A stretch of 64,000 nt of DNA. It comes from Caprimulgus europaeus (taxonomy: Eukaryota; Chordata; Aves; Caprimulgiformes; Caprimulgidae). The stretch covers positions 23,766,015 to 23,830,014 of the forward strand of contig OU015528.1 of NCBI GenBank assembly GCA_907165065.1, written 5' to 3'. How positions within the stretch are numbered: position 1 is the stretch's first letter; every line of letters begins with the position of its first letter. The translations under genes and the position numbers were made by a program. Below are positions 7,898 to 58,914 of the stretch, in pieces. The notes beneath the pieces were generated by a model. That model ran no database searches. It had not been told where the DNA came from and saw nothing but the letters and a program-made list of their open reading frames with translations.

Positions 7898-8100
7898 TTT
7901 TCTTCTCCTCTCCTCTCCTCTCCTCTCCTCTCCTCTCCTCTCCTCTCCTCTCCTCTCCTCTCCTCTCCTCTCCTCTCCTCTCCTCTCCTCTCCTCTCCTC
8001 TCCTCTCCTCTCCTCTCCTCTCCTCTCCTCTCCTCTCCTCTCCTCTTCCCCTCCCCTCCCTTCCCCTCCCCTCCCCTCCCCTCCCCTCCCCTCCCCTCCT
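7898..8100 (+). repeat. 203-nt polypyrimidine tract: (TCCTC)n then (CTCCC)n microsatellite
   Basis: Uninterrupted C/T on the plus strand. 7904-8045 is about 28 near-perfect TCCTC units; after CTTCCC it switches to about ten CTCCC units up to 8098. A short (TC)n run follows at 8105-8116. Mirror-symmetric purine/pyrimidine DNA of this kind can form intramolecular triplex. The RRGEE- and LLSSP-repeat open frames across it are artefacts. Confidence 0.97.
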
Positions 8101-14100: not shown

Positions 14101-17100
14101 TACTTAACTGCCTGCTTCTGGGCAGGCTGAAATGTGTCTTAATTTTGATAGGGGCGAGAAGCTCCGACCTTTTTGGCACACAGAGACCAGGCGTTTCTTC
14201 CATGCTGGGATGATTAGGTAAACATTCTCAACCACAACTGCCAAGCCAACACAAGGCTGAAGATACAATACTTCAATGGGTTGAACATACTTTTGAGATG
14301 TGGGACACCTACTTTGATTTTTAATCCATACCATGAAGAGAACTTAAGTGCACAGCTCCAGGATGAAGTTCTTCTCTGTGTAGGTTAAAAGTGTAGGAGG
14401 GCACCACTCTAAAGCCTTGTGGTGGGTGTTCAATTTTTCTTTTCCCAGTTGAAATTCCCTCAGATCAGCACACAGACTTGTCTAGATTCAGTTGTGGCAC
14501 TCTCAGCTAGTCCAGCTGTATCCGGTCTTTTGGTAAAAGATGTCACCTTTCTCTGCAAGTGTTGCCTACCTTACGTGCTTAGGATTCTCAGCTGTAACAG
14601 AACTACTGTTGTGGTGGGGGTTGTGGGGAGCATAGGAGCACATGAGCACAGAGCCTATTAGGTGGGAAAGCACTTAAAAGTTTGGTGATAGCCAGATAGA
14701 TACAGTCAGAATATTACTGTCCAAAGACCAAAATTTCCTTCAATACTGGAAGGGAATATATTTGTCCTTTAGAGCTGTTGGATTCATTTTGATGCAGTGC
14801 ACAGACTTTGAGAATCAAAAGGATTAACACAGCTCTGTCACAATATGAAATTCAATAGTTGCTTATAATCTGTCAGTTCTGGTACTGAAGCCTGCTTACT
14901 GTCGACTACCATTAAAAATTTTTTGTTCCCTTTATCAAAGGTACAGACAGTGAAGGGGGGAAATGAAAGCACTAGCAACTGAATTCATTCATTACATGTC
15001 TTCTTTTTAGTTGCCTTTTAGAGGTCAGTGATTGTCCCGTTTGAGTGGCAAAAAGGAAAAGTTACAGAGACTGCAACTGCAGCTGTTGCTATTGCTATTG
15101 AAATCTAATTTGGTTTTGTGAAGATAAATCAAAACAAGCATGTACAAAACAAGACAGAAAAGATAACCTGCAGCTTTTCATTCTGGTATTGATTGGTTTT
15201 CAGTGCCGATGCACCTGGTCTTACAAACCTTCCCTCAACATTAGATTGCTCCTTTGATAGCATCTCCTGTCTGCAGCCTCTTCCTGATATTTGAAGACAA
15301 ATGCTGCTTTCTAAATCTACTTTCTGAATGGTCCGTGTGAGTATGGAACCTCATCTTCTGGATGAGGACCAGAAGCATCCAGCTTTGCCTCATGCTTTGT
15401 ACTAAAGCTCTAACCATCAGCTGTCACTGTTGTCCTCTCCTGCCTTCTCGTACCAGTGTCCAGAAGGACATAAGGAAGTCTGACAAAGCCAGGTAAAGAT
15501 AAAATTCAAAAAGAATTTCAGTTAGTAGTAGACTGTCCTACATTTTCTTGGGTTAAAGGGCAGTCTGCCAATGCAAGTGGCCAGACATACATACAATTTT
15601 TGTCTTAAGCAAGGGACTAAAAAGATATTTCCGAATAATTTGGAAGCCAGTTCAGATTATGCAGAAGAGTAGAGAAAAACAAGACTGTTCTTCTTTGTGA
15701 ACCACTTGAATAGGTATCTAGAAAAGCCCACAAAGGAAGGAGCTTCTGAAACTGTGCTGCATTTGTCCAAAGAGGGGATACAGCTGTACTTCCTTGCACC
15801 ACCCTCTGGAGCTGAGCTGAGAGAACTGGACTGCATCCTTCCCTACATGGTAAATACTTCTTTTACAGCATAACTGGCAGAGCAAAAGAGGAAAGATTCC
15901 TAAGTGGCTGCTTTAATATAATGTTGCCAGAGACTTCTATTTTTCTGTGTTCAACAACATGCCAGACACGTCATTGGACACTTATAGTTGTGACTAAGAA
16001 GACTACAGTGCTCTGCTATTCAACTTTGTTCTTGCTACTAGATAGACATATTTTTCTTGCACAGATCTGAGAAGTGTGAGGAACAGCAGCTCTTATCTAT
16101 GCATCTTCTAAGATGGCTATGAATTTTAATAGATTTCCTAATGTGATTAAACACTGCAGACCTCTAGTAGAAAAATATCAGATTTCTAATTTTTTTCCTG
16201 AATATCTTTGTCCTTTGAACAGAGGAATATAAAGAACACTGGGAAATGATCAGGGTTCAACTCATAAGTTTACTGGATAAGTGTCCAATAAAATTTAGAA
16301 AACAACATGAAGGCTGGTATTCTAGTCTCCTTGCTTACAAAAATGGGATTGAATCAATGTTTTCCTGGGAAAGAATGGCACAACTGAACCTCAAACACAT
16401 GTACTGCAATACGAAGATGTTTCCTTTATTATAGCATCTTTCCTTCTCCCTAGATCATACGTATTTTACTTTACTTACATTACTCTATCCACCTCAGAAT
16501 TTTCCATGGTGACCTGCATGCTGTGAGCATAAAATATGGTATAGCACAATGGTAGCAATCAACATCTACTGGCCAAATGCCTACAGCTTACAGAGGAGGT
16601 GAAGAATATGTCTCATTTTATAGTATACACAATTAAGCCCTTCCCAAATTTTCTAGAGTGAAAACACACACAGCATTGCCTATTAATAGACAGCAATCTC
16701 TTTTGGCTGTAGCCTCTCTGTTCAAATCTAGTCTTTCCACAGACACTAAAACCACAATGCCCAGTTCACTTCTGTTACTTTCATTTCAGTGCAACTCCAG
16801 TAGCTCAGTCTATAAAAGCGGAATTACAACTTGGGTGTTGCTGGTGTGAAGTGAATAGAGCCCATTATTTTACATTTGGTAGGATACCTCGGGTTGTTCC
16901 AGTTGCTTTGTGTCACTATGATGACATACACCATTGGGGAACTCTCCCTAACTGGTAGTTGCTGTCTGTTTTGTCTTTCCAAAGTGGGAATTTCCATGGT
17001 TGTAACATCTTTTATCCAGAAATACCCTAGGAACTCAACAGGCTTCTCCATGGCTGCTCTGTGCAAAATGTACTCAATGGAAGTATTTGAGGAAGAAGAA

Positions 17101-28300: not shown

Positions 28301-28589
28301 CTTACATCGTTAATTTCCTTTTTAGGCTTGATTTGATCACGAGCCCCTGGGTGTACGTTGTAGTAGTACATGGCAGAGTAGCTTCACAGACCTGGCGTGA
28401 TGGAGTCAGCAGTGCCTGGACTGCCAATACTAAAAGGAAAATCTACACTGGTACATTCATATTTCTCTCAAGTTAATGTTTGTGATCAGCTGCACTTTTG
28501 CCAAACCGCCTCGCTCTTTCTCTGTACATAAGCCTGGCAAGTATACGACTTGACAATTTCCATCAGAATAGCAATAGGTATCTAAAAAC

Positions 28590-29480
28590 TCCTTTAAAAG
28601 GCACCACCGACGCCTTTGCGGGTGGGGGTGTGGAGCGGAGCCGTGGGTGGGCGGGGGAGAAGACAAAAGAGAGCCAAGGAAGAAAACCAGGCTGTTCTCG
28701 CAGCGGACCCTGAACAGCAGCCGCCCTTTTGCCTTAACCGCGGGGAGGCGTTCATTTATCCTCGCCCCCCACCCCTCTGCGCTGCGGCCCGCGCCCGCGG
28801 GCTCAGCCCCGCCGTGGCTCCTGCCAAGCCCGGCCCGGCCGCCTGACAAGCGCCTCGGTCTCAGTGCGGATTATCCGGCTGCAACAGCGCCCGTCCCCTG
28901 CGCCCCGCTCCCCGGCCTGCCGAGGTGGTGCCCAGGGCTCCCCGGGCTGCAACTGCGAGGCCGTGGATACCCCTGCTCAGCGGACCTGCCCTCCGAGCCC
29001 GTTCCCCTCCCTGTGCCCCGCAGCCCGGCCGCCCGCGGCCGCCAGGGGTCTCCGTCGACCGCGCGGAGCAGTTGGCCGCGCTCGGCGTGCGGGGCCCGGG
29101 GGGCGGTGGCAGCGGGGCCGCCCCGGCCGGGGTTGGGTGGGGGACGGCGGTCAGCGGCAGAACTTCCCAGCCGGAAGGAGAGAGCTACGGAGCTCGTTTT
29201 GTCCGGGCTGTTTGTCGTTGCCAGCAGGCTTCCGTTACTACAGAGGCCACAGAGGTTTAATAGATGGGACATCTTTCCAGTCTTACACAACACAAAATAC
29301 CTGCCGTTCTCGGGGCACTGCCAACGGCGAACTAGGGAGGTGACCCGGTCTCAGCAGGCCCCACAGGAAACGTCAAAACCCAGCGATGGCAGCCGCTTCC
29401 CTCTGCCGGGGCGCTGGGATAGAGACTTGGAAGCAGCGGCTCCGGCTGGAGAGAGAGGGAGGGAACCTCTCGGGGAAGAC
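28590..29480. promoter_or_regulatory. Orphan CpG island
   Basis: GC- and CpG-dense sequence embedded in AT-rich DNA, about 6.4 kb downstream of the LSMEM1 stop. It contains multiple GGGCGG/CCGCCC boxes and CCGGCC-type runs, and a TATA-like CTTTAAAAGGC at its left edge near 28592. The open frames across it (up to 281 codons) are Pro/Arg/Ala-rich and match nothing I recognise, so I treat it as regulatory rather than coding. It could be the promoter of a non-coding RNA in either direction. Confidence 0.75.
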
Positions 29481-29589
29481 ACGAACACGTGAAGAGCACC
29501 GAGGAAGAGCTTTCAAACGCAGGGGGCTGTTTCCTCTTTTACCAGCTTATGTCAAATCATGAGCAGCGTTCCCCGAGGAGGAGGCCTCA

Positions 29590-32958: not shown

Positions 32959-33033
32959 CTGCCATGGCAGAGGGGTTGGAACGAGATGATCTTTAAGGTC
33001 CCTTCCAACCCTAACCATTCTATGATTCTATGA
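32959..33033 (+). mobile_element. CR1 LINE 3' tail fragment
   Basis: It reads GCCATGGCAGAGGGGTTGGA, then ACGAGATGATCTTTAAGG, then CCCTTCCAACC, and ends in CCATTCTATGATTCTATGA, the hallmark CR1 3' terminus with its ATTCTATG octamer repeat. It is about 75 bp, heavily 5'-truncated and non-coding. Confidence 0.92.
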
Positions 33034-34181: not shown

Positions 34182-34500
34182 TCATAGAATCATAGAATGG
34201 TTTGGGTTGGAAGGCACCTTAAAGATCATCTAGTTCCAACCCCGGTGCCATGGCAGGGACACCTTCCACTAGACCAGGTTGCTCAAAGCCTCAGCCAGCC
34301 TGGCCTTAAACACTTCCAGGGAGGGGACATCCACAACTTCCTTGGGCAACCTATTTAAATGTCTGACCACCTTCACAGTCAAGAATTTCTTCCTAATATC
34401 TAATCTAAATCCACCCTCTTTCAGCTTAAAGACATTTCCTCTTGTTCTGTCATTAACTGCCCTCATGAAAAGTCCCTCCCCAGCTTTCTTGTAGGCCCCT
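34182..34500 (-). mobile_element. CR1 LINE fragment with the ORF2 C-terminus
   Basis: The plus strand starts with TCATAGAATCATAGAATGG, the complement of the CR1 tail. Reading on the minus strand, 34466-34269 is open for 65 codons: RGNVFKLKEGGFRLDIRKKF, then HLNRLPKEVVDVPSLEVFKA, the classic C-terminal end of the CR1 endonuclease/reverse-transcriptase protein. It is 5'-truncated at about 34500 and of low divergence, so relatively young within this window. It is not a host gene. Confidence 0.95.
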
Positions 34501-46530: not shown

Positions 46531-46620
46531 CTAGAAAAATTCCCCCACGTCTGTTCTTTTATCACGACATTTACTTCTAGCCTTTGTCCGAGCCTTGAAT
46601 GCTGCAGAGTTGTACAAGTG
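46531..46620 (-). CDS. IFRD1: IFRD1 coding exon 12 (residues 406-434, stop)
   Basis: The acceptor is ATTTTGTAG|CA. The exon encodes HLYNSAAFKARTKARSKCRD and ends KRTDVGEFF followed by TAG at 46533-46531. This basic C-terminal helix is the most conserved part of the family. In IFRD2 the corresponding helix enters the ribosomal mRNA channel. Confidence 0.97.
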   Translation of the reverse strand, partial: HLYNSAAFKARTKARSKCRDKRTDVGEFF

Positions 46621-49600
46621 CTACAAAATAAAAGGAAAAATTAATCATAGATGTTCAAAAGGCTTATGTCGATCAGAGATTTTTTATGCTAAAAATCAGC
46701 TGAAAGTATCTTTTTATTAAGCTCTGAAGAAAATTGGTAGGCCTTCTGAAATTTATAGTATAATATTTTTGCACCAAAGGCTTATTTATTTTAATATATT
46801 CACATTTAAAAGAAACTTGGGACTGTGTAAGGAAGGCTGAGCTACACGCAGTTCTGGAAGCCAGTCAGTCTTGAAGATCATACAGACACAATGTAGATTA
46901 AGTCTGCCCCCTGGATTAAACTTGGGGGCACCATTCCACAAATGGTTCACACACGCAACAAGTACCTTCACAACCAACAGAACAAAGTCATCCTCCTAGT
47001 GTCCGTTTCACACTGGAGCGTTTAGAATGCTATCTTTATAAACACTCAGTTTCTATGGTTTCCTGTAGGTCCCTACTCCAAAAAACAGAGCTCTCATAAG
47101 AGCCCAAGTTTCACACGTATGGAACGTGAATCTGGTACCCATCACCAACCACCTTCAGAGCTCCTTGGGAGAAAAGCAGTAGCAGATACATGCCCAGTGG
47201 AAACTCTAAAATAAGAGCTCAGACACATACAAGCAAGGTTTGGTTTCATTCAGGCCAATATGGGGCACTGCTAGAACTGAAGTGGCAAGTTTAAAGATGA
47301 TAGCTTCTAAAGTGCATGTTTGGATAACCATTTAATTCAGGAGAAATATATTAGTGTAGGAAGTAAAGAAAATACATTAAGGTGCAATAACCTACCCTTT
47401 CAAAACGGGATATCTTCATTGTTTTAAGAGCTGCAGCATCTAGCATTACTGGTGGACCAAGCTCAAACACATTCCGAAGAAAGTCATTTGACTAAACAAG
47501 AAACACATCGAACCATCAGTTTCTCGTAATTATCAAATGTCCAAAGAAGATTACTGATAAATATCAAGTATTCTCGTAAGAAACAGCAGCAATTTTACAC
47601 ATCTCTTAGCATCTGTTGCAATTAAGCCACAGAACACTTCTTCCTTAAATCAGAATAAGGCTAAGAACTAAAACTGCCCTCTTGAGGAGACAGACAGCTC
47701 CCTCCTCTCCAGTGATTTTCTTTCTGTCCCAGCAAATTAGACACTGTTCTGTTACATCCTCTACACAAGATTAGGTAGCTAGACACAGACAGGTATGGCT
47801 ATCAATTTTAATATATCTGGCTGTAAAAGCAGTATTTGAAAAATAACAAAAAGCTGCTACATGCCTGGGCTCCTTCAGTCACAAAGAAATGCAACAGACA
47901 CTAGACTGAAGATTTTAACCCCGTGATTATCATAGCCTTTTGGGAGCATACACTCCTAAAACACAATTCGTGCTTCTGCTACCATATCTAAACAGATGAC
48001 TAGTGAACAAGCAGTTCCCAGAACAGAGATAAGCACTTATCCCTTCCTGTCTGGAATGCTGTCATCACTGGCCTGCAAGCTGTGTTCCTTATTTTTGACT
48101 AAAACTTTGCATTCCTTTTTACAGGCTTGAACAGGAAGGGTGGAAGCATGCAGCTTTATAGCAGCCAGATGACTAGACCACTCTGTTGAAAGACTGTAAG
48201 GATTCAGGAAATACCCTGAAGCTAAGAAGATACTCAGCTTGAATCTCTTCCTTCTTGGAGAAGTCTTAAAATTGCTAACCCAACATCTCCAGGCTGCAAC
48301 TCAGAAGCAGCTCACCCAGACGGTTCTAGCTCACCACAGTTCATTTTGTAAGTAGGTGCCATCTTTTAGAGCTTCTAATGCAAAGCCCATCATTTCACCA
48401 AGTTCTACTCATGATTTTGTAATTCAGACTGAATTGCTACAAAGAGACCAGACAGGGAACAGACATCTGAGCATGTATCAAACAGCAGCTCACCTGCAAA
48501 TGATACTGCATCCCCGACCCCAGAATCTCCTTGAAGGTATCATAAGTTTGTTTTTTAACCCAGCAGTCGATATACATGCGCTCAGGTCCAAACTTAACCA
48601 TCTCTGTCGGAAAGTCACGCTCCTATCCAAAATTAAAAGAAATAATATATGTCATTTTAATTTAAACAGTCTTTTGTATCAGGACTTTATCAAAACCTTC
48701 CAAATAATGTAATATGCATATACTAAAGATTATATTTATTCATAAACTGATGCACATCTGAAGTTAAATCTCATGTAAGACCTGAAGCTGACATTCTTCA
48801 GGTCAGGAAGAATTTAAGGAAAAAAAAAAAAAAGAACACTTAACTTTCATCTTTAAAATTACTTTAAAGAATTGGATTTATGTCCAGGGGAAAAAAAAAA
48901 AAAAAAAAAAGAGTTCTGAGTGCAGTAGTCACCTTTCAGTCAGTCTGTAAGCCTCATTTAGTCCCCACCTTTCTAGTGCACTGAGCTACATTTGTGACAA
49001 TGGCATGTAACAAGTACCAATAAGTGACTCAGATTCTTCTACAGTCAGAATCTCAAAGGTGACTTCAAATCACTTTAAAGCCTTCTCCCTTAGCTTCCGA
49101 GATGTTTAATTGTTCTGAATGCCAACTAATATTTAGTTGGTCTTATTCATACAGCAATGTAAAAAGTAATTATCCGACAAGTAAAAAAAATCTAGTTTGA
49201 GAGGTGTAATATATCAATGTTCTATTAAAGTGGTAGAAGTCTGATATGTCTTAGAGGCTTTACTAAAGTTACTTCACTAACCCAGTCTTTTTAGAGTTCT
49301 GCTTTATGTATTGTTCTCTTAATCTGGATATGGAAAACCATAAGATTACAGCACAACAACTAGGACAACTCCTCCCCCCATACATAAACACTTCTTTGGT
49401 CCCTGACAGAGGGACCATTTGGAAATGTATCTTACTACTAAGTTGTTTTTTATTTATTATGCACAGCAGCTAAATCAGAGATTTTACAATAAATCTTTTC
49501 ACAGAATTCAACATACTAATTTGGATGTCCTACAAAGTTTTCTATGAAAAAAATCAGCTCATGGTATAAAATTAAAAAATGTAGTATTTACAGTGTAATG

Positions 49601-52600
49601 TTTAGCTTTTTTTTAAAAAAAAAACCAAAACAGCAAAAAACTCCTCAATATGGAAGTCAATTTTGGAGCAAAATAAACGAAGTTTGACTTTCTTTGTTCT
49701 ACATTCCTAAGAAAGCAGTTATAGTTCACATAAGTGATCAGAATTTGAAATCTGATTTAAAATAATTTTTTCCAGTTGCTTTCACTGAAACAGTAATTCC
49801 CTCTAATAATAAAAGTATTTTCATTAAATTGTACTCTACATAGTTACAATCTAGACATTCAAAATAAGACAAGAGAATCACCTCAACAGCTCGTAGAACA
49901 TCTCTGAAGACAGATCGCTGCTTTCTTTTATCTACTTTGGCTCGGTGCTTGTTTCCATCAGTAGCCAGAGCTCTTAGTTTCTCTGTTAGAAGTTCCATAT
50001 CTTCATAAAGGAAATCCTAGTCCAAAAAAAAAAAATTTTTTTTTTTTTTTTCTGGCTTTAACATCTTTTCCTGCAAATAGGAAAACACATCTCTCCAAAT
50101 TCTGGGCACGAAGACCTCTACAACCTGCTACTTTGTTATTTAAAGAGACAGAGATGGCACTAACTTCCTGCAGTTCCATTTGCAGCGTTTAAGCCAGCAA
50201 GAACAAAGCCACAGCATCCAGTTTACCCAAGCAGACCACTATCAAACTCTATTCTGGTAGTCAGAGCCACATAGAATAGAATCATACAATCGTTAGGCTG
50301 GAAAAGACCTTTGAGATCGAGTCCAACCGTACCTATCCACTACTAAACTGTAGTATCTCTGAGCACCTGATCTACCCATCTTTTAAATTCCTCCAAGGAT
50401 GGTGAAACAGTACAGCTCCTTCCATGTGTGTATATACCTGTCAATCTCTTCTGCTCCATAATTCCAAGGAACTCAAACTGCCTAACTGATCTGCTGAACC
50501 TGGCTGCCACTCCTGTTGACAAGCTGAGGGCACTTGCAGGTTATTAGCACAGAATTCATGCTGCTGGAGATGGATCATGAGACATCATTAGACTGACAGT
50601 ATGAAATATTTAGTCATAAGTCTTGTAAGGAGTAGAAAATTAGAAAGTAGTTTTAAAAAAATGCTTAACAAAACACTCTAAGTAAACTTCAATGCATAAT
50701 TGTTTAGCAGGAAGTATTTTCTCCCTTCCACTTACTAATTCAGAGTAATTTACCTGGATTAGTAAGAATGTATGTACACAAAACAAGTTTTTGTGGTTTG
50801 TTTTTTTGTTTAATCTGAACGTTTTGTCATGTCAACTGACTAGGCCGACTTGATTGCATGCTTTTTGAAATAAACTGGTCAAAGGCAAAACACAGTGAGA
50901 ATTCCAAATCTGAGCTGACTATCAAGGATCCAAAGAGAGTAACTGGTAAAGATTAAAAGGCTGTTTTCTCAATGGAATGGAAGAAGTTTTTAATTAATAT
51001 AGTCTCATTCATTAATGCATTTTAGATTTTAGTTACTTGCAGTCAGTCTGACCAAAGCAAAGATCAAGTCTGGTCTCTCTTTTTGTTTCAAAGTTGGCTT
51101 CCATAGCCAAGAGACTCAAATCCCTAACTTTGCAATTATACAGAAGTCTCAGCATATTGTTCCAGATTATGCAGCGTTAGTGTGTCGTGTCTCCTGACTC
51201 AACTGGAGTTATCTTTCACTTTGGACAGTGTTCTGGCAAAGCACAGCAGCCTTGATTGAGCCAGGAGCCATTCAGGCAGCTCTCCCAAACTGTGCCATGG
51301 GTAAGTGGAGACTGTCTCCTTCAGTGCTGTCAAGAAAACAGTTCAGAAATTCATAAGGCATACTGAAAAATGTAAAGCAAGCTTAGCTGTGCATGAGGTG
51401 ATAGTGAGAAGCTTGCACCTAATCAAACTCAAAAGCAAACCCCAAGAAACCTCACCAAATATAGCAATACTGGTATCTGTGCAAAATCTGTGCAAATCCT
51501 TTCAAAATCTCCTCTCCCTCTGAAGACTAATTAGTCCTCAGATAACTAAGATAGTCACAAATGGTGTAAATCCATCACGTAATACTAGGTACTCTTCTAT
51601 GTAGAAGTTACTCTTTCTGTGCAGGCTGTGAATCACTGGAAGTTGTGTGCGTAAGTATCTAATGAGTGTTCCCACTACAGTAAACAATGCTGTTTTGGCC
51701 TGGAATCTCCCTAGGTATATTTTTTTGGGTTTTTTTTAAAGCCAGTGTTGGATTTAGACTTTAAAACTTGCATACTACATTTTTAGTTGCTCTTAATACT
51801 GTCTGGTGTGTTTTGGCCCTGTTCTGCAACATGGAAATTTGTGTAAAAGTGATAGCTACATTGCTATGAATCACTGCTATACCCACTTAGATTGGGGCAG
51901 ACTCAATACAAAGAACATAACCCAGTGAATTATCTGCCACCTGTCGAGATCTGAGGTGCTATGAAACACAGGTTAAATAATTTGTCTTGCCATCATCCGA
52001 ATGCAAGAAAACTCAGCTGCTGACATCTACTTACAGCATCTGTTTCACGTGCAAGTTCAAACAGAAGGGCTAGTGTTTCTCCAGCAGCTATTCTCATGTT
52101 GAGATCATCACAAGACAGCAGACTTGGAAGTTTATGCAAGTGCCTAAGGAGTAAGTCACATATCATTAAGATATAAATTTTGTTTACACTGCTTCACTGC
52201 ATATAAAAACAGTCATTACAAATTTTGTTTTCCAAGAAGGATACTCACATTTCAATTTTCTTCTTCACTTCATTCATTGGACAAATGGTCAACAACAGTG
52301 TCCATGCTAGGAGAGCACTGATGTGAAGCACAGTATTATGGGTACTCGATACACCATTAGCATCTCTGTCTCGCTGATAGGCCTTTGTGAAGATGTTTTC
52401 CAGGCATTCCATAGTAGAGTACAGTTCCTGAACAGGGGAAAAAATATCATGGAAGTGGTTTAAGATCCACACATTTTCATACTGTCTATTTATTAAAAAA
52501 AAAATATTATTTATCCTCACCGTAATGTCATCGGTGACGATGAAACAGCAAATCCCTAAACAGGTTGCACACTAAACGCAAAAGAAAAAAGTGTCAGTAT

Positions 52601-55600
52601 TTGACATTAATGTTACTGTTAACAAAACTTTCAAACTTTGACCTCTGAAATTCAGCAGAGTAATGGAAACTTGAGATTAAGACCTTGGCAGAGCATAAGC
52701 ATTCAACAATGTTTAATTCAGTTACATTATAAACAGTTAGCCCTCAGTTCCCCTCCACTTTCAGGATGATTTTACAACATATGCTCCTCATAAGCCTTCA
52801 TTTTCATGCTGTATTATTTAATATAGCTTACAAAGCCCCTCCAAAAAGCTACATGTAGCACTCCTTCCACCCACTAATTTTAAAACCCACTAGCATTCAC
52901 CAGCAGAAGCTATGCTGATAAACAGTAATGGACATATGATATTTATTCACAGCTGTGGGCAATATTTTGCCCTCTCTGCCCACTATTACATGGCATGAAA
53001 ACACTGGATTTCAAAAGCCTTTCTTGGTACTTTCCAACTTTTACTGCAAGGTCCTACACATTTCTTCTCTATCCCCTGTACTCTACTTAGTCACCTCATA
53101 CAGAGGGCAAGAAAAAAAAAATGTTTGAAAGTGACTGCACTAACTACACAGGACTCAAAAGTACACTTGAACAGGACAAGCTTTAATAGCTTCTGTTTGT
53201 TTGTAGAAACAACTGCTGCTGAACTAACACTACCTCCTCTTGCAGCTGACAATATCTATTGTAACATAGCTTAAGTAAACAGGAGAAGTAGCCATCTATA
53301 TAATGATATAGGCAAGTTAGAGAATATTAGTTAAAACTCTGAAGTTTAAAGAAAACCCTCTTGGCAAGAGCTTTAGACTATCTTCAGTCAATATTTCAAG
53401 CATACCGCTGATATATAGATGAGATGACTGGGTGAAAAACTCAACAATACTTTTGTTAGTATAAATATATCAAGTATGTAGTTCTCTATCTGCTATATAT
53501 AATTTTATCCTATATAAGATATATTTGCATAGCTAATATTCCTCTGCTGTTGAAGAAGTTAAAATTAATACAGGAAGGATATACCAGTCTTTGGGAACAA
53601 ACTTTCTTTTTTTTCTCTAGGACTTAAACATCAGCCCTCAGTAAGGAGACTGCAACACAGTGAGTTAAGACACTTGACAAAGTACTAGGTGTAACAGCTC
53701 TTTAAGGAAGTTCCTAGGTTGAAGATGAGAATGACGCTCAACCTTTAGGTGGAACTTGTTAAGCCTGTGAAAACTGCTATGCATCATTCAGAGCACACGT
53801 CAGTATTATGGGTTTACGCTACTGCAGTAACCTTTAGTTCTGGATTACACAACAGTGAACTGGTTAGAAACTGCCCTCTGCCCCTGCTTGACAAATAACA
53901 TTTCATACTTACAGCCTGTCTGACTTGGATACTGGCTGTCCCATCACAGACAATTTTCTTCAGAACTGGACCAAGGGTCTTAAAAACCTCTTCGCTTTCA
54001 ATTCCTGACCCCATCTGCACACACAGAAGACATGCCAGTCCAGCAGCTGCACACTGTTCGTCGCTCTTACCTAGAGATTAACAAGCGATTATGAGTAATC
54101 ACCTTGTGCATTGCTTCCCTCTCCTTTAAAGATAATTAGTCTGAAAACTTGCAAGCGGAAATTCAGAAACCAATGATGGAAGATAACTTCAGTTAATTTC
54201 CTAGGTCAGTTAAAATATAACACCTAAGTTCAAAAAAGAAATGTTGTTAACATAACTAAATCAAGCATTCTATAAAGTACTAGAGAAGCCTCACAGTCTT
54301 AATTCCTTTTAAACAATAAGCTATCTCATAAGTATTATTGCTTTCTATTAGCATGTTAATTACCTTTCTTTATGCAGCGTTCAATGCTATCAGTTAGTGT
54401 CATTCTCCTTTCCATGATAAATTCATATAGTATTTTAGAAGAAAAAGCACTTTTCAGACTTTCAAGAGCTGCTTGTCTTGTCTTCGCACTGTTAGAAGAG
54501 AGAAGGAAGGCATCTGAAATCAGCACACATCAGTTAAAGATCAGCCTTTGTTTTTATGGTAGTTTATATTTGCCTGTGCCCAATAGAAGAGTAGTCCACA
54601 GCAATCCCACAAAGCATGAAATGCTATGAATTGCCTCCTTCCTCAAGGCCAGAGAAACTTAGCTTGGAGAGAAGAGTTCACAATAGTACACCAAGCTTGA
54701 AATGAAGTCACTCTACTTCAAGCTATTAGGAAAGGGAAGTCTGCCTCTCACTTATCCAAAAACTTGGTAGAGGCAGAAAGGTCTTTTCAGATCCAGAAGA
54801 AAAGCAAGTCCTCCCCAGCATGAAATAATTAGAATTTCAGTAAGCATATAAAAAGTTTGATGAGTATTCCTTTATTATATCAGGGAAAGACAGAAAATAA
54901 TGTACAAATATATATCTTCAAAGCGTACTATACCTCTTGTCCAATGTAAGATCAATAAACCCCTTCAATTTGTATTCTAAGTCTTCTTGAGTGGCTTCTT
55001 CATCAACTTCAGGCCCTAATCCAGAGGAAATAATTTAGTCCTACTGATATACATTTTATTAGCAGACACAGTGGTATGCAATGCTTAATGTTTTTAATAC
55101 TAATAAGAAAGCAATTTAACATAGGCAACAGCTACAGAATTCGCAGTATAACAGCAACAGAAGGGTGTTAAGCCTACTATATCAAACTGCCCCTTAAAGC
55201 ACTTCTGTAAGAATGGATCTATTGATACATCTGTGCTATTTCTATACCTGCTTCCTACATCTGCCAAGAATGAATGAGGGAGCTAATCAGGTCTTACATG
55301 AATTCGCTACAACTAACATGCATCAGCCAATCCTGTCGGCAACGCGTTTTCATCCAGCCCACTACATCTGCCCCTGGAGTACAGTGGGGTGTTTGCTGTT
55401 GATGCAGCGAGTACAGCCTAAGCAGCCCGTCCTGTCTGGCCTCACTTCAGATGCCTCTGCAACAGCAGCTCAGTTAAGTGTAGCAAGTATACACAGGGAA
55501 GGCTCCTTGCCTTATTCTCCCTCTAGCAGGCCTTCAGGTCCCCCCTCCTCTCAACAAAATGACTTTAGAGCAGCCCAGGTTGCTGAGATGGTAGTGGAGA

Positions 55601-58220
55601 CAAAGCACAAATCTAGTTCAAAACAGGCAAGTATGACTCAAAATTCTTATTGTCTCCAGGAAAGGTAACATTGTATTACTCTAACAGAAAGAAGTCTAAC
55701 AGTTTCACAAGAGGCTCATAAAACTTGAAGTATAATCTTACCAAACAAAACAGTAACCACTAGATTAACAATCATATAGTGTTTAACAATGTCATTATTT
55801 TGCTACTGCTACTTACAGTCTAGCACTTAAAGTCTCAAGTCAACTCAGGTCCTATGTTTTTAAAAAAATTGATAAAAATGAAAGAACTTACCATCCTCAG
55901 TGAAGCTAGCAGGATCACTGAAGCCACTGCAGTGGCTCATAGTTTCAATTGAAGCATCTTCATCACTAAAAGGCTGCACATTTCTGGGCTGACCACCTTC
56001 AGGGAAGATGAATACAATAGTTTGGTCATTTTTCATACACAAAAGGAGAAGCCAAACACTGAAAGTAGAATTTAACCCTCACAACAGATTCACTCTCCCT
56101 GACCCAGACACAGAAAGCACATTCCTTTCCTTTGCTAGGTCCTTTATTCCCACTGGTTCTGAAGACTTAGTTGGCTCTGCTATGGAAGGTAGTTTGTGAA
56201 TGGTGGGGAAGAGCCCACCTCATTTTCAAAGTATTAGTAGAATTCCTAACTCTAGATTTAGGATCTTTCTACAATCAACTTCAAGTTCATCCAATTTCTT
56301 GTGACTGTGCTTTAAAAATAGCTCGATATTAATATATCTGTTAGGATAAGCTAACTAAAAAAACTGCCATACAATCTTTTATTTTTACATTTTGAGGGAC
56401 TTCAAGCCAGGATAAGTTATACATTTAGGCAAACATACACTACTTGGTTTAATGCAGGATTTACAGGATTAAGTATAGCATGTGCAGGATCAGCAATGTC
56501 CAACTCTATTTTAATACTGAATTACAAATACAAGCCAGAACATCAAATGCTTCAATAGAGTAAAGAAGTTTTCCCTCTCGGAATCAAGGTCTCAGTGCAG
56601 TAACTTCAGTCTTTTTGAAGAAAGCAGTGTTATTTTCACCACTGCTCATGTCTACAACTTTTCACACCTGTATCTTATTGTTATAGCAATACTGTAATTT
56701 CTACTGCTGTCCTATCCTAGCCCTTAATTTGCATCTAAAGTTGAGGAACAAAAGAATACTTTAACTGTTATTTCTCCAACACCTCCCAAATATCATTTAC
56801 AGAACTCAGAACTTCACTCTTCCATCTATTTTTTGTGGTATAATTGAATCTAAATTATTTAAGAATGCAGTGCACAGTGCTTGCCAGCTTCAGTCAGGCT
56901 TCCTGACTAGCCAAGACCCTCAGAAAGCATTTTTTTCTAGACAGAATCAACCTTAACTGATCCCTGTCTGAGTGCTTTCCAATAAAGTTAAATTTACACT
57001 TCAGAGGTTTTGCAGCTGTTGGTCGCAAACCATCCACTCCTGCCATTGACCATAACTCTGATGTTTTCCTATAGTTATGAAGGACAAACACTGGCCAATG
57101 CACAGACCAAGAAACTTGGAAGCTCAGAGCTCTGGCATGGCCACCTTCTTGCTTCTAGTGATGTCAGGCAGGGAAGATCTTTGGGAAAAGTGGCACAAAT
57201 GACTGCCAGCCTTTCACAAACTCAAATAAAAACAGCTGCAGAAAGTCCCAGTGAGCTGATCACTTCCTGAACATTTGACACTAGAGACAGACTGCTCACA
57301 GCTGTGGTAGCCTGAAGTGAAATTTCTCACCACCCCATCAAACCTCCATTCTGCCCAGGGATCAGCACCTCAGCCACACACACTCTGGACCTGTATGGAC
57401 TCCGTTTATTTTCTAATACCCTCTTTTACGTTAAGAAGTCTGTTGTTTCAGGTTTTTGTTGATTTTTTTTTTTTTTAAGTAGTGTAGCCTTTCAGAGTAC
57501 AATGCGCAGACACATAGCCACACCAGCCACCGGAGTGACAGCAGCAGCCGGCCCCCGCCTCGGCAGGGCCCACGCTGGCGCCGCTGCACACCCAGGGCTG
57601 TTCGTGCTCCCCGGGGACGCGCCCCAGCGCCTGCAGCACCCCGCGGGCCCGGCTCCCCGCGCTGCCCCAGGGACAGCGGGCGGCACCCGCCACCGCGGCG
57701 GCCAGGAGGCCCCCGGCGGGGCCGGCGCCGGGCGGGGCCGCCGGCAGCCCTCAGGGCGCTGCTGACCGCCGGCGGCGCCAGGCACGGCCGCCGCCCGCCG
57801 CCTCCCCGGGGCCGCCGGGCGCATGCGCAAAAACGCCGTGAGGTGGATGCTTCGGGGCCAGCTCTTGTCAGCCCGGCAGCGCCACGCGGCCCCTGCCCGA
57901 CTCCGGCCCCAGCTCGGGCTCCGTTCCGCCCACCGCGAAGCCCCGCGGCCGCCCCTGCCCGTCCTGCCGCTAACCCACTAGCCCCGCAGGTAGCCGGGGC
58001 GCAGCCGGGCACGGCGGCCCGTCCGGCCGCGGCCTCTCCCGTCGGCGAAGGCCGCCCCACCCGCTCCCCCACCTCCCACCCCAACCCCACCAGCGGCTCG
58101 GGCGGCCACGGGAAAGGCCGGGTGAAGCCGGCGCCCCGCGAGGTCGCCCGCTCCGAGCCCCCGCCCGCCCTCACCGGCTCCGCGCTGGTGGTTGCTCCCC
58201 CGCTTCTTAGGCTTGGGCAT
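46531..58220 (-). CDS. IFRD1: IFRD1, interferon-related developmental regulator 1 (12 coding exons, complete)
   Basis: Joined coding exons, 5' to 3' on the minus strand: 58220-58175, 55996-55892, 55015-54934, 54488-54364, 54070-53913, 52571-52521, 52427-52249, 52143-52035, 50016-49882, 48622-48494, 47491-47396, 46620-46531. They total 1305 nt (434 residues plus TAG), every intron is GT-AG and all phases agree. Recognisable IFRD1 stretches are NVQPFSDEDASIETMSHCSG in exon 2, LLAWTLLLTICP in exon 7, NKHRAKVDKRKQRSVFRDVL in exon 9 and the C-terminus RSKCRDKR..DVGEFF. From family knowledge, an N-terminal acidic/Ser-rich leader is followed by the alpha-helical IFRD domain (about 35-330) and the IFRD C-terminal domain (about 380-434). 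IFRD1 is a nuclear/cytoplasmic co-regulator linked to SIN3-HDAC and MyoD/MEF2 activity; its paralogue IFRD2 binds idle ribosomes. Human IFRD1 is 451 residues as I recall it. Nearly all the difference is a shorter Gly/Ala linker in exon 1. LSMEM1 lies downstream on the same strand. Confidence 0.97.
47396..47491 (-). CDS. IFRD1: IFRD1 coding exon 11 (residues 374-405)
   Basis: 96 nt, symmetrical, with acceptor TTGTTTAG|TC and donor GAAAGG|GTAGGT. It encodes SNDFLRNVFELGPPVMLDAA and TMKISRFER, the start of the conserved IFRD C-terminal domain. Confidence 0.97.
48494..48622 (-). CDS. IFRD1: IFRD1 coding exon 10 (residues 331-373)
   Basis: 129 nt, symmetrical, with acceptor TTGGATAG|GA and donor TTGCAG|GTGAGC. 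It encodes ERDFPTEMVKFGPERMYIDC and WVKKQTYDTFKEILGSGMQY, the segment joining the IFRD core to the C-terminal domain. Confidence 0.97.
49882..50016 (-). CDS. IFRD1: IFRD1 coding exon 9 (residues 286-330)
   Basis: 135 nt, symmetrical (45 codons), with acceptor T12-GGACTAG|GA and donor GTTGAG|GTGATT. It encodes DFLYEDMELLTEKLRALATD and the highly basic NKHRAKVDKRKQRSVFRDVL, essentially identical to mammals. Its polypyrimidine tract is one half of an A12/T16 homopolymer pair at 50024-50051. Confidence 0.97.
50024..50051. repeat. A12/T16 homopolymer pair at the IFRD1 exon 9 acceptor
   Basis: The plus strand reads A12 followed directly by T16. On the transcript strand this is A16 then T12 then GGACTAG|, so the T run is the polypyrimidine tract of exon 9. 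Confidence 0.9.
50270..50410 (-). mobile_element. CR1 LINE fragment in IFRD1 intron 8
   Basis: The plus strand reads AGAATCATACAATCGTTAGG, then TGGAAAAGACCTTTGAGATC, then GAGTCCAACCGTACCTATCC and TCTACCCATCTTTTAAATTC, a CR1 3' region of a different subfamily from the 34 kb copy. It lies in the same orientation as IFRD1, about 250 bp upstream of exon 9. Confidence 0.88.
52035..52143 (-). CDS. IFRD1: IFRD1 coding exon 8 (residues 249-285)
   Basis: 109 nt, with acceptor CTCCTTAG|GC and donor GATGCT|GTAAGT. It encodes HLHKLPSLLSCDDLNMRIAA and LALLFELARETDA, part of the IFRD helical array. The end (RETDA) differs from the mammalian RGIES. Confidence 0.96.
52249..52427 (-). CDS. IFRD1: IFRD1 coding exon 7 (residues 190-249)
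   Basis: 179 nt, with acceptor TGTTCAG|GA and donor GAAAT|GTGAGT. It encodes ELYSTMECLENIFTKAY, a variable loop, then NTVLHISALLAWTLLLTICP and the following helix. The loop (QRDRDANGVSSTH) is the least conserved part relative to the mammalian sequence. Confidence 0.97.
52521..52571 (-). CDS. IFRD1: IFRD1 coding exon 6 (residues 173-189)
   Basis: A 51-nt in-frame exon (17 codons, CATCLGICCFIVTDDIT) with acceptor GCGTTTAG|TG and donor ATTACG|GTGAGG. It is Cys-rich and hydrophobic. Being symmetrical and very short, it could be skipped without a frameshift. The intron after it is only 93 nt. Confidence 0.95.
53913..54070 (-). CDS. IFRD1: IFRD1 coding exon 5 (residues 120-172)
   Basis: 158 nt, with acceptor ATCTCTAG|GT and donor CAGGCT|GTAAGT. 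It encodes KSDEQCAAAGLACLLCVQ and GIESEEVFKTLGPVLKKIVC, helical repeats of the IFRD domain. It joins exon 6 in phase 0. Confidence 0.96.
54364..54488 (-). CDS. IFRD1: IFRD1 coding exon 4 (residues 78-120)
   Basis: 125 nt, with acceptor TCTAACAG|TG and donor AAAG|GTAATT. It encodes SAKTRQAALESLKSAF and YEFIMERRMTLTDSIERCIK, amphipathic helices of the IFRD (ARM-like) domain that closely match the mammalian protein. Confidence 0.96.
54934..55015 (-). CDS. IFRD1: IFRD1 coding exon 3 (residues 51-78)
   Basis: 82 nt, with acceptor GATTAG|GG and donor AAGAG|GTATAG. It encodes GPEVDEEATQEDLEYKLKG then FIDLTLDK, the start of the helical IFRD domain. One residue is missing relative to the human GPEVLDEE segment. 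Confidence 0.95.
55892..55996 (-). CDS. IFRD1: IFRD1 coding exon 2 (residues 16-50)
   Basis: The acceptor is ..CCTGAAG|GT and the donor GATG|GTAAGT; the exon is 105 nt. It encodes GGQPRNVQPFSDEDASIETM and the following Ser/Asp/Glu-rich segment, the near-invariant acidic leader of IFRD1. This is the best exon for telling IFRD1 from IFRD2. Confidence 0.96.
58175..58220 (-). CDS. IFRD1: IFRD1 coding exon 1 (residues 1-15, start codon)
   Basis: The ATG at 58220-58218 has A at -3 (ACC ATG C). It opens the basic N-terminus MPKPKKRG, equivalent to MPKNKKR in mammals, and follows the stop of the upstream ORF by 86 nt. The exon ends GCC G|GTGAGG (donor at 58174-58173), leaving one base of a Gly codon that exon 2 completes. 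The Gly/Ala-rich linker that mammals carry here is about 16 residues shorter. Confidence 0.93.
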
Positions 58221-58497
58221 GGTCGCAGCGGCGCTCGGCTCGGCTCCCGCGGCCCCTCTCCGGGTCTCGGTCTCTCTGCTCCCCCCCGCCCGGGAATCAG
58301 CGACAATCAGCCGATGGAAGAGCAGGATCGCTTTTTACTCCAACGCCTCTGCGAGGCCGACTTCCCGGGCCGGGGCAGCGGAGGTGATTGGCGAAAGCAG
58401 GCGAAGGACGAACCGGCGGCGAAGGCAGAAATCCCCGTGGAGGCCCGTGAGCGGAGTCGATACATCTTTCTCCTCTCAGACACCTGGGGCTAAAGGC
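58221..58497 (-). other. IFRD1: IFRD1 5' UTR (inferred)
   Basis: The upper boundary is inferred by placing the start site about 25-30 nt downstream of the TATA box at 58519-58526. The leader of about 275 nt is GC-rich and contains a single upstream ATG (58465-58463). No splice pair inside it is needed to reach the main ATG. Confidence 0.55.
58307..58465 (-). CDS. Upstream ORF in the IFRD1 5' leader, 52 codons
   Basis: ATG at 58465-58463, TGA at 58309-58307: 52 residues beginning MYRLRSRASTGIS, rich in Arg and Ser, with a basic WSKKRS segment near the end. It is the only ATG between the inferred start site and the main ATG. It has A at -3 but T at +4, and its stop precedes the main ATG by 86 nt, so re-initiation is geometrically possible. 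From literature knowledge, mammalian IFRD1 mRNA carries a uORF that represses translation and destabilises the mRNA until stress lifts the effect. I recall that uORF as being of the same length class. Whether the peptide itself is conserved cannot be judged here. Confidence 0.75.
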   Translation of the reverse strand: MYRLRSRASTGISAFAAGSSFACFRQSPPLPRPGKSASQRRWSKKRSCSSIG

Positions 58498-58518
58498 GCG
58501 GAGGGGGCGCCGGCGCGG

Positions 58519-58526
58519 TTTTTATA
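58519..58526 (-). promoter_or_regulatory. TATA box of IFRD1
   Basis: On the minus strand the sequence reads GGCTATAAAAACCG. It lies about 300 nt upstream of the IFRD1 ATG and is the only TATA-like element in the GC-rich promoter. It predicts a focused start near 58490-58497. Confidence 0.7.
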
Positions 58527-58540
58527 GCCCGCCGGGCTGT

Positions 58541-58668
58541 GGGGGCGGGGCCACGCGACGCGCCGTTGCCGCGACCAATGGCCGGGCGCTGCGACAGCGA
58601 GCGGGTGACTCAGCCGCGTGAGCCGGTGACGCGCAGCTTTGCTACCCAGGGGCGGGGCTGCGACGTCA
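58541..58668 (-). promoter_or_regulatory. IFRD1 proximal promoter element cluster
   Basis: Plus-strand motifs moving away from the gene: a GC box at 58541-58550 (GGGGGCGGGG), CCAAT at 58575-58579, GTGACTCAGC at 58605-58614 (a perfect AP-1 core and also the antioxidant-response consensus RTGACNNNGC), a second GGGGCGGGG around 58650, and CGACGTCA at 58661-58668 (CRE/ATF-like). This fits a gene first described as phorbol-ester inducible (TIS7). Binding is inferred from the motifs only. Confidence 0.6.
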
Positions 58669-58914
58669 TCGCCGCTTCGCGCGCCATGCCGCGGTGCACG
58701 CTGGGAGCGGCGGGCTTGGCCGCCCGCCCGCGGAGCGGGGGAGGCGAAGGGACGGCATGGCCTGAGCCGCGGCCGCCGGCGGCGACTGGCAGCGGCCGCC
58801 GGAGCCCAGACCGTGCGCGGTGCCGCTGGAGGCTGGCGCCTGGCTGCGTTCCCGCCCTGGGGCTCCTCATCGGCGGGGCCTCCTCAGGGTGCCCAAAAGT
58901 ACCACGGTGCCGGC

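Follow-up and report, generated by a model that had tools for sequence, protein, structure and literature searches.

The IFRD1 gene and its upstream open reading frame

The minus strand of the window (the whole 64,000-nucleotide stretch of DNA that was analysed) carries a gene whose main open reading frame is identified from its sequence as IFRD1. The main ATG lies at 58220, and the coding part of exon 1 (58175 to 58220, minus strand; MPKPKKRGSNHQRGA) ends in phase 1 before a GT donor at 58174-58173, a boundary placed from the phase and the splice signals. The other coding exons and the introns, running from GGQPRNVQ to DVGEFF, occupy 46534 to 55996 on the same strand; they were located by tblastn with a human protein sequence as query, and the acceptor of exon 2 was read in the sequence. 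An approximately joined translation comprising the exons after exon 1 matched the Pfam families IFRD (E = 1.7e-94) and IFRD_C (E = 1.2e-23).

Upstream of the main ATG, a TATA box (TATAAA, minus strand) is present at 58526-58521, and because of this motif transcription is predicted to start near 58496. Three further motifs, each a motif match only, lie upstream of the predicted start: TGACGTC at 58662 to 58668 and TGAGTCA at 58606 to 58612, both on the minus strand and CRE-like and AP-1-like respectively, and an inverted CCAAT (ATTGG). The 276 nt from 58496 to the main ATG contain a single ATG, and other ATGs of the minus strand, for example that at 58758, are found upstream of the TATA box. 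This upstream ATG (uATG) has the context AGAAAG-ATG-T, with A at -3 and T at +4, and it opens an upstream open reading frame (uORF) of 52 codons and a TGA stop at 58465-58307 on the minus strand, with the translation MYRLRSRASTGISAFAAGSSFACFRQSPPLPRPGKSASQRRWSKKRSCSSIG followed by the stop; on the strength of its frame and of the match of its start to 24 nt of the human sequence, it is probably orthologous to the uORF of human IFRD1. The predicted leader 5' of the uATG is 31 nt long (58466 to 58496, its start taken from the TATA box), and a spacer of 86 nt (58221 to 58306, read directly in the sequence) separates the uORF stop from the main ATG. The preliminary description of this DNA had proposed a lone upstream ATG with A at -3 and a complete 52-codon frame that stops 86 nt short of the main ATG; the frame and its position are borne out, as is the lone ATG, given the predicted start at 58496.

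A genuine uORF could nonetheless be absent from most of the mRNA, if that mRNA arises from another promoter or first exon. In humans, the uORF is found in only one of two transcript variants (PMC4383229, citing Zhao 2010); however, the uATG has the TATA box 61 nt upstream of it, which puts a start upstream of the uORF, and we regard such a loss of the uORF from most transcripts as improbable.

Other features of the window

Elsewhere in the window, an array of TCTCC units (about 39 copies, 96% matches) occupies 7904-8100. The sequence ATTCTATGATTCTATG, which we take to resemble the 3' end of CR1 retrotransposons, is present in two exact 16-base copies, at 33017-33032 on the plus strand and 34183-34198 on the minus strand; when up to two mismatches were allowed there were three matches in the window, a number reached in 0 of 100 shuffles. 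The two exact copies are consistent with a bird, the likely assignment of this DNA, although other reptiles would be compatible with them as well. Pfam searches were run on ten of the 286 stop-free stretches, and nine of the ten gave no match. A stop-free stretch of 304 codons at 28578-29489 (plus strand) had no match in a Pfam search, and because its translation is rich in proline, arginine and alanine, the data suggest GC-rich DNA, perhaps the CpG island of another gene, rather than protein. A protein-like open stretch at 16225-16386 (plus strand), beginning EYKEHWEMIRVQLISLLDKCPIKFRKQHEGWYSS, likewise had no match in a Pfam search and is possibly an exon or a transposon fragment. The tenth of the stretches searched, at 16713-16955 (plus strand), gave a sub-threshold match to FAM135 (17.8 bits against a cut-off of 27), which was rejected because on reading it had the look of a chance match.

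Chance expectation for the frame

To measure how often such an architecture arises by chance, the 276-nt leader was shuffled 20,000 times with its dinucleotides preserved. Of the shuffled leaders, 8.6% contained a complete ATG frame of 52 or more codons, and in 1.2% a lone ATG opened such a frame; the proportion fell to 0.075% where the frame opened by the lone ATG was of exactly 52 codons, and to 0.035% when a purine at -3 was also required. By itself, the uORF architecture is only mildly unusual for such GC-rich DNA and is weak evidence. The notion that the frame is striking in its own right was dropped, as the shuffles revealed that long open frames are frequent in this leader.

The frequency of long frames in the shuffles favours a reading in which the uORF arose by chance as an open frame in a GC-rich leader, with no relation to the mammalian uORF. 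Against this, its length and start context are as in human, and its start matches the human one far above shuffles (see below); a chance origin is therefore given very little credence. The excess over chance, as judged by sequence comparison, comes from how well the start of this uORF agrees with that of the human one.

Similarity to the human IFRD1 uORF

One of the primers given in PMC4383229 consists of the opening 24 nt of the human uORF, which encode MYRFRSQL. When these 24 nt were compared without gaps over 58221-58600, the top match, at 17 of 24 nt, fell exactly where the uORF begins, and a value as high was reached in 0 of 2000 mononucleotide shuffles; with the ATG left out, the match was 14 of 21 nt, which was reached in 22 of 2000 shuffles. 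The uORF begins MYRLRSRA, so that MYRxRS is common to both species and the differences among these eight residues are at positions 4, 7 and 8. There are seven nucleotide changes relative to the human 24 nt, two of them synonymous in Arg codons. Among 222,699 random stretches (stop-free, 7 codons, from 3000 shuffled leaders), 137 had at least four of the seven post-Met residues in common with the human start, and 2 had YRxRS. Sequence homology was thus found over the 24 nt compared, at the beginning of the human uORF.

The flanks of the uORF were compared with two oligos used for cloning a human IFRD1 5'UTR (PMC12221301). The matches were at chance level both before the uORF (58466-58600; 11 of 21 nt, 935 of 2000 shuffles) and after it (58221-58306; 8 of 14 nt, 1966 of 2000 shuffles); this control is weak, because the oligos are shorter and the IFRD1 transcript from which they derive is unspecified in the available part of PMC12221301. 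In a full-text literature search, four short strings taken from the human uORF start were found in PMC4383229 alone. The uORF peptide pattern gave 121 and 592 pattern matches in viral_contigs and genome_contigs respectively, with no relative among them, as expected of collections of viruses and prokaryotes, and an Rfam search of the whole window returned nothing at gathering scores.

The uORF has in common with that of human IFRD1 (TIS7, PC4) the gene, a single uATG and 52 codons plus a stop, and also the A at -3, the T/U at +4, MYRxRS and a short leader before the uATG (PMC4383229). For the human uORF, both 51 and 52 codons are in print, PMC4383229 being among the sources, and an IFRD1 uORF has been reported in mouse Ifrd1 too. 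In contrast, the spacer is twice as long here (86 nt, compared to 43 nt in human), and the predicted leader before the uATG is 31 nt, compared to 19 nt in human (PMC4383229). The proposal that the architecture is the same as that of the mammalian IFRD1 uORF held up in the codon count, the start context and the similar N-terminus, and because all three agree, common descent is much likelier than coincidence. Altogether, these data indicate that the uORF is very probably the orthologue of the mammalian IFRD1 regulatory uORF and would act as it does in mammals.

Predicted regulation of IFRD1 translation and mRNA decay

A stop codon more than about 50 nt upstream of an exon junction can lead to mRNA decay. 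The uORF stop lies 132 nt upstream of the predicted end of exon 1 and its donor, beyond this distance, and decay would therefore be permitted. Decay of IFRD1 mRNA driven by the uORF was reported by Zhao 2010 (as cited in PMC4383229, PMC3738444 and PMC7083229), and in mouse cells decay was observed along with the binding of factors to the Ifrd1 uORF (PMC7083229). The IFRD1 leader lowered the translation of reporter mRNAs in human cells about sevenfold relative to a control leader, and a change of the uORF AUG to AUA raised reporter expression eightfold, abolished stress resistance and rendered translation sensitive to eIF2 inhibition (PMC4383229). Under arsenite, the level of IFRD1 mRNA did not change significantly (PMC4383229), so that the decay arm may be confined to certain stresses. 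Repression, stress resistance and decay were thus seen in mammalian cells, and we infer by analogy that the same would hold here.

In the mechanism proposed for this gene, ribosomes entering at the cap would reach the uATG after about 30 nt, mostly translate the 52 codons and terminate, leaving few ribosomes for the main ATG and hence a low level of IFRD1. With the first exon junction 132 nt beyond the uORF stop, the mRNA could also be marked for decay. Under stress, phosphorylation of eIF2 would lower uORF occupancy, and scanning ribosomes would get past it, so that IFRD1 translation would be kept. A single uORF is likewise enough for resistance to eIF2 phosphorylation in PPP1R15B and DDIT3 (PMC4383229, PMC6033536), although PPP1R15B, a different gene, has two uORFs in its leader (PMC4383229) and in DDIT3, also a different gene, a specific peptide stalls the ribosome (PMC6033536). 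The resistance conferred by a single uORF has been modelled as elongating ribosomes dislodging scanning ribosomes (PMC6033536).

Some features of the leader fit the human mechanism less well. In human reporters, stress resistance was lost when a stem-loop was added at the 5' end (PMC4383229). Here, the uATG sits in a hairpin in the predicted fold, and the 49 nt up to and around the uORF start (counted from the predicted start position) fold at -10.1 kcal/mol, with a z of 0.03 against shuffles. The whole leader (z of 0.56) is neither more nor less structured than shuffles. The hairpin at the uATG, a leader that is no less structured than shuffles, the 86-nt spacer and the steady mRNA level under arsenite in human cells are the points of poorer fit.

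Possible selection on the encoded peptide

Beyond the length and place of the frame, the encoded peptide may itself have been selected, whether for a role as a microprotein or because the nascent chain slows the ribosome; we consider this possible but doubtful. MYRxRS is kept between human and this DNA, and the two synonymous Arg-codon changes point the same way. However, the G+C of the uORF by codon position (0.47, 0.74 and 0.70) is unlike the pattern expected of ordinary coding sequences, a Pfam search of the uORF translation gave no match, and the eight comparable codons are too few for dN/dS. In the literature, IFRD1-uORF-MP is listed among conserved microproteins, and in earlier screens it had an influence on viability and was a hit in Perturb-seq (PMC10032668); moreover, it has been suggested that the IFRD1 uORF might work via ribosome stalls (PMC9648851). 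On the other hand, at least two uORFs, those of SLC35A4 and MIEF1, are named in PMC4383229 as likely sources of functional proteins, and that of IFRD1 is not among them. A further reading, that the amino acids of the peptide, MYRxRS especially, have been under selection since before the bird-mammal split and that the peptide acts in one of these two ways in addition to its positional effect, is likewise tentative.

Conservation of the IFRD1 uORF

The preliminary description also held that the element predates the split between birds and mammals. This conclusion is sound in view of the length, the start context and the N-terminus, with the regulation itself assigned here by analogy. In PMC4383229 the uORF is described as highly conserved, and an alignment of 46 vertebrates is presented; this alignment, in which chicken and zebra finch are reportedly included, likely shows the uORF in birds. 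In PMC10032668, IFRD1-uORF-MP is called conserved in the sense of conservation across non-primate mammals, and at least 375 of 758 such sORF products are also significantly similar in chicken, frog and/or zebrafish. The main text of PMC7530721, which surveys conserved uORFs in a set of species with chicken among them, makes no mention of IFRD1, and no study of the IFRD1 uORF in birds was apparent by title and term counts among the matches listed in a full-text search.

Conservation of the IFRD1 uORF is already in print, and the uORF found here is no new kind of element. It is probably a further example, from a bird or reptile, of a stress switch that has been studied in detail, and the length and the start context have been kept in it. 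The kept length and start context argue for a lasting constraint on the uORF.
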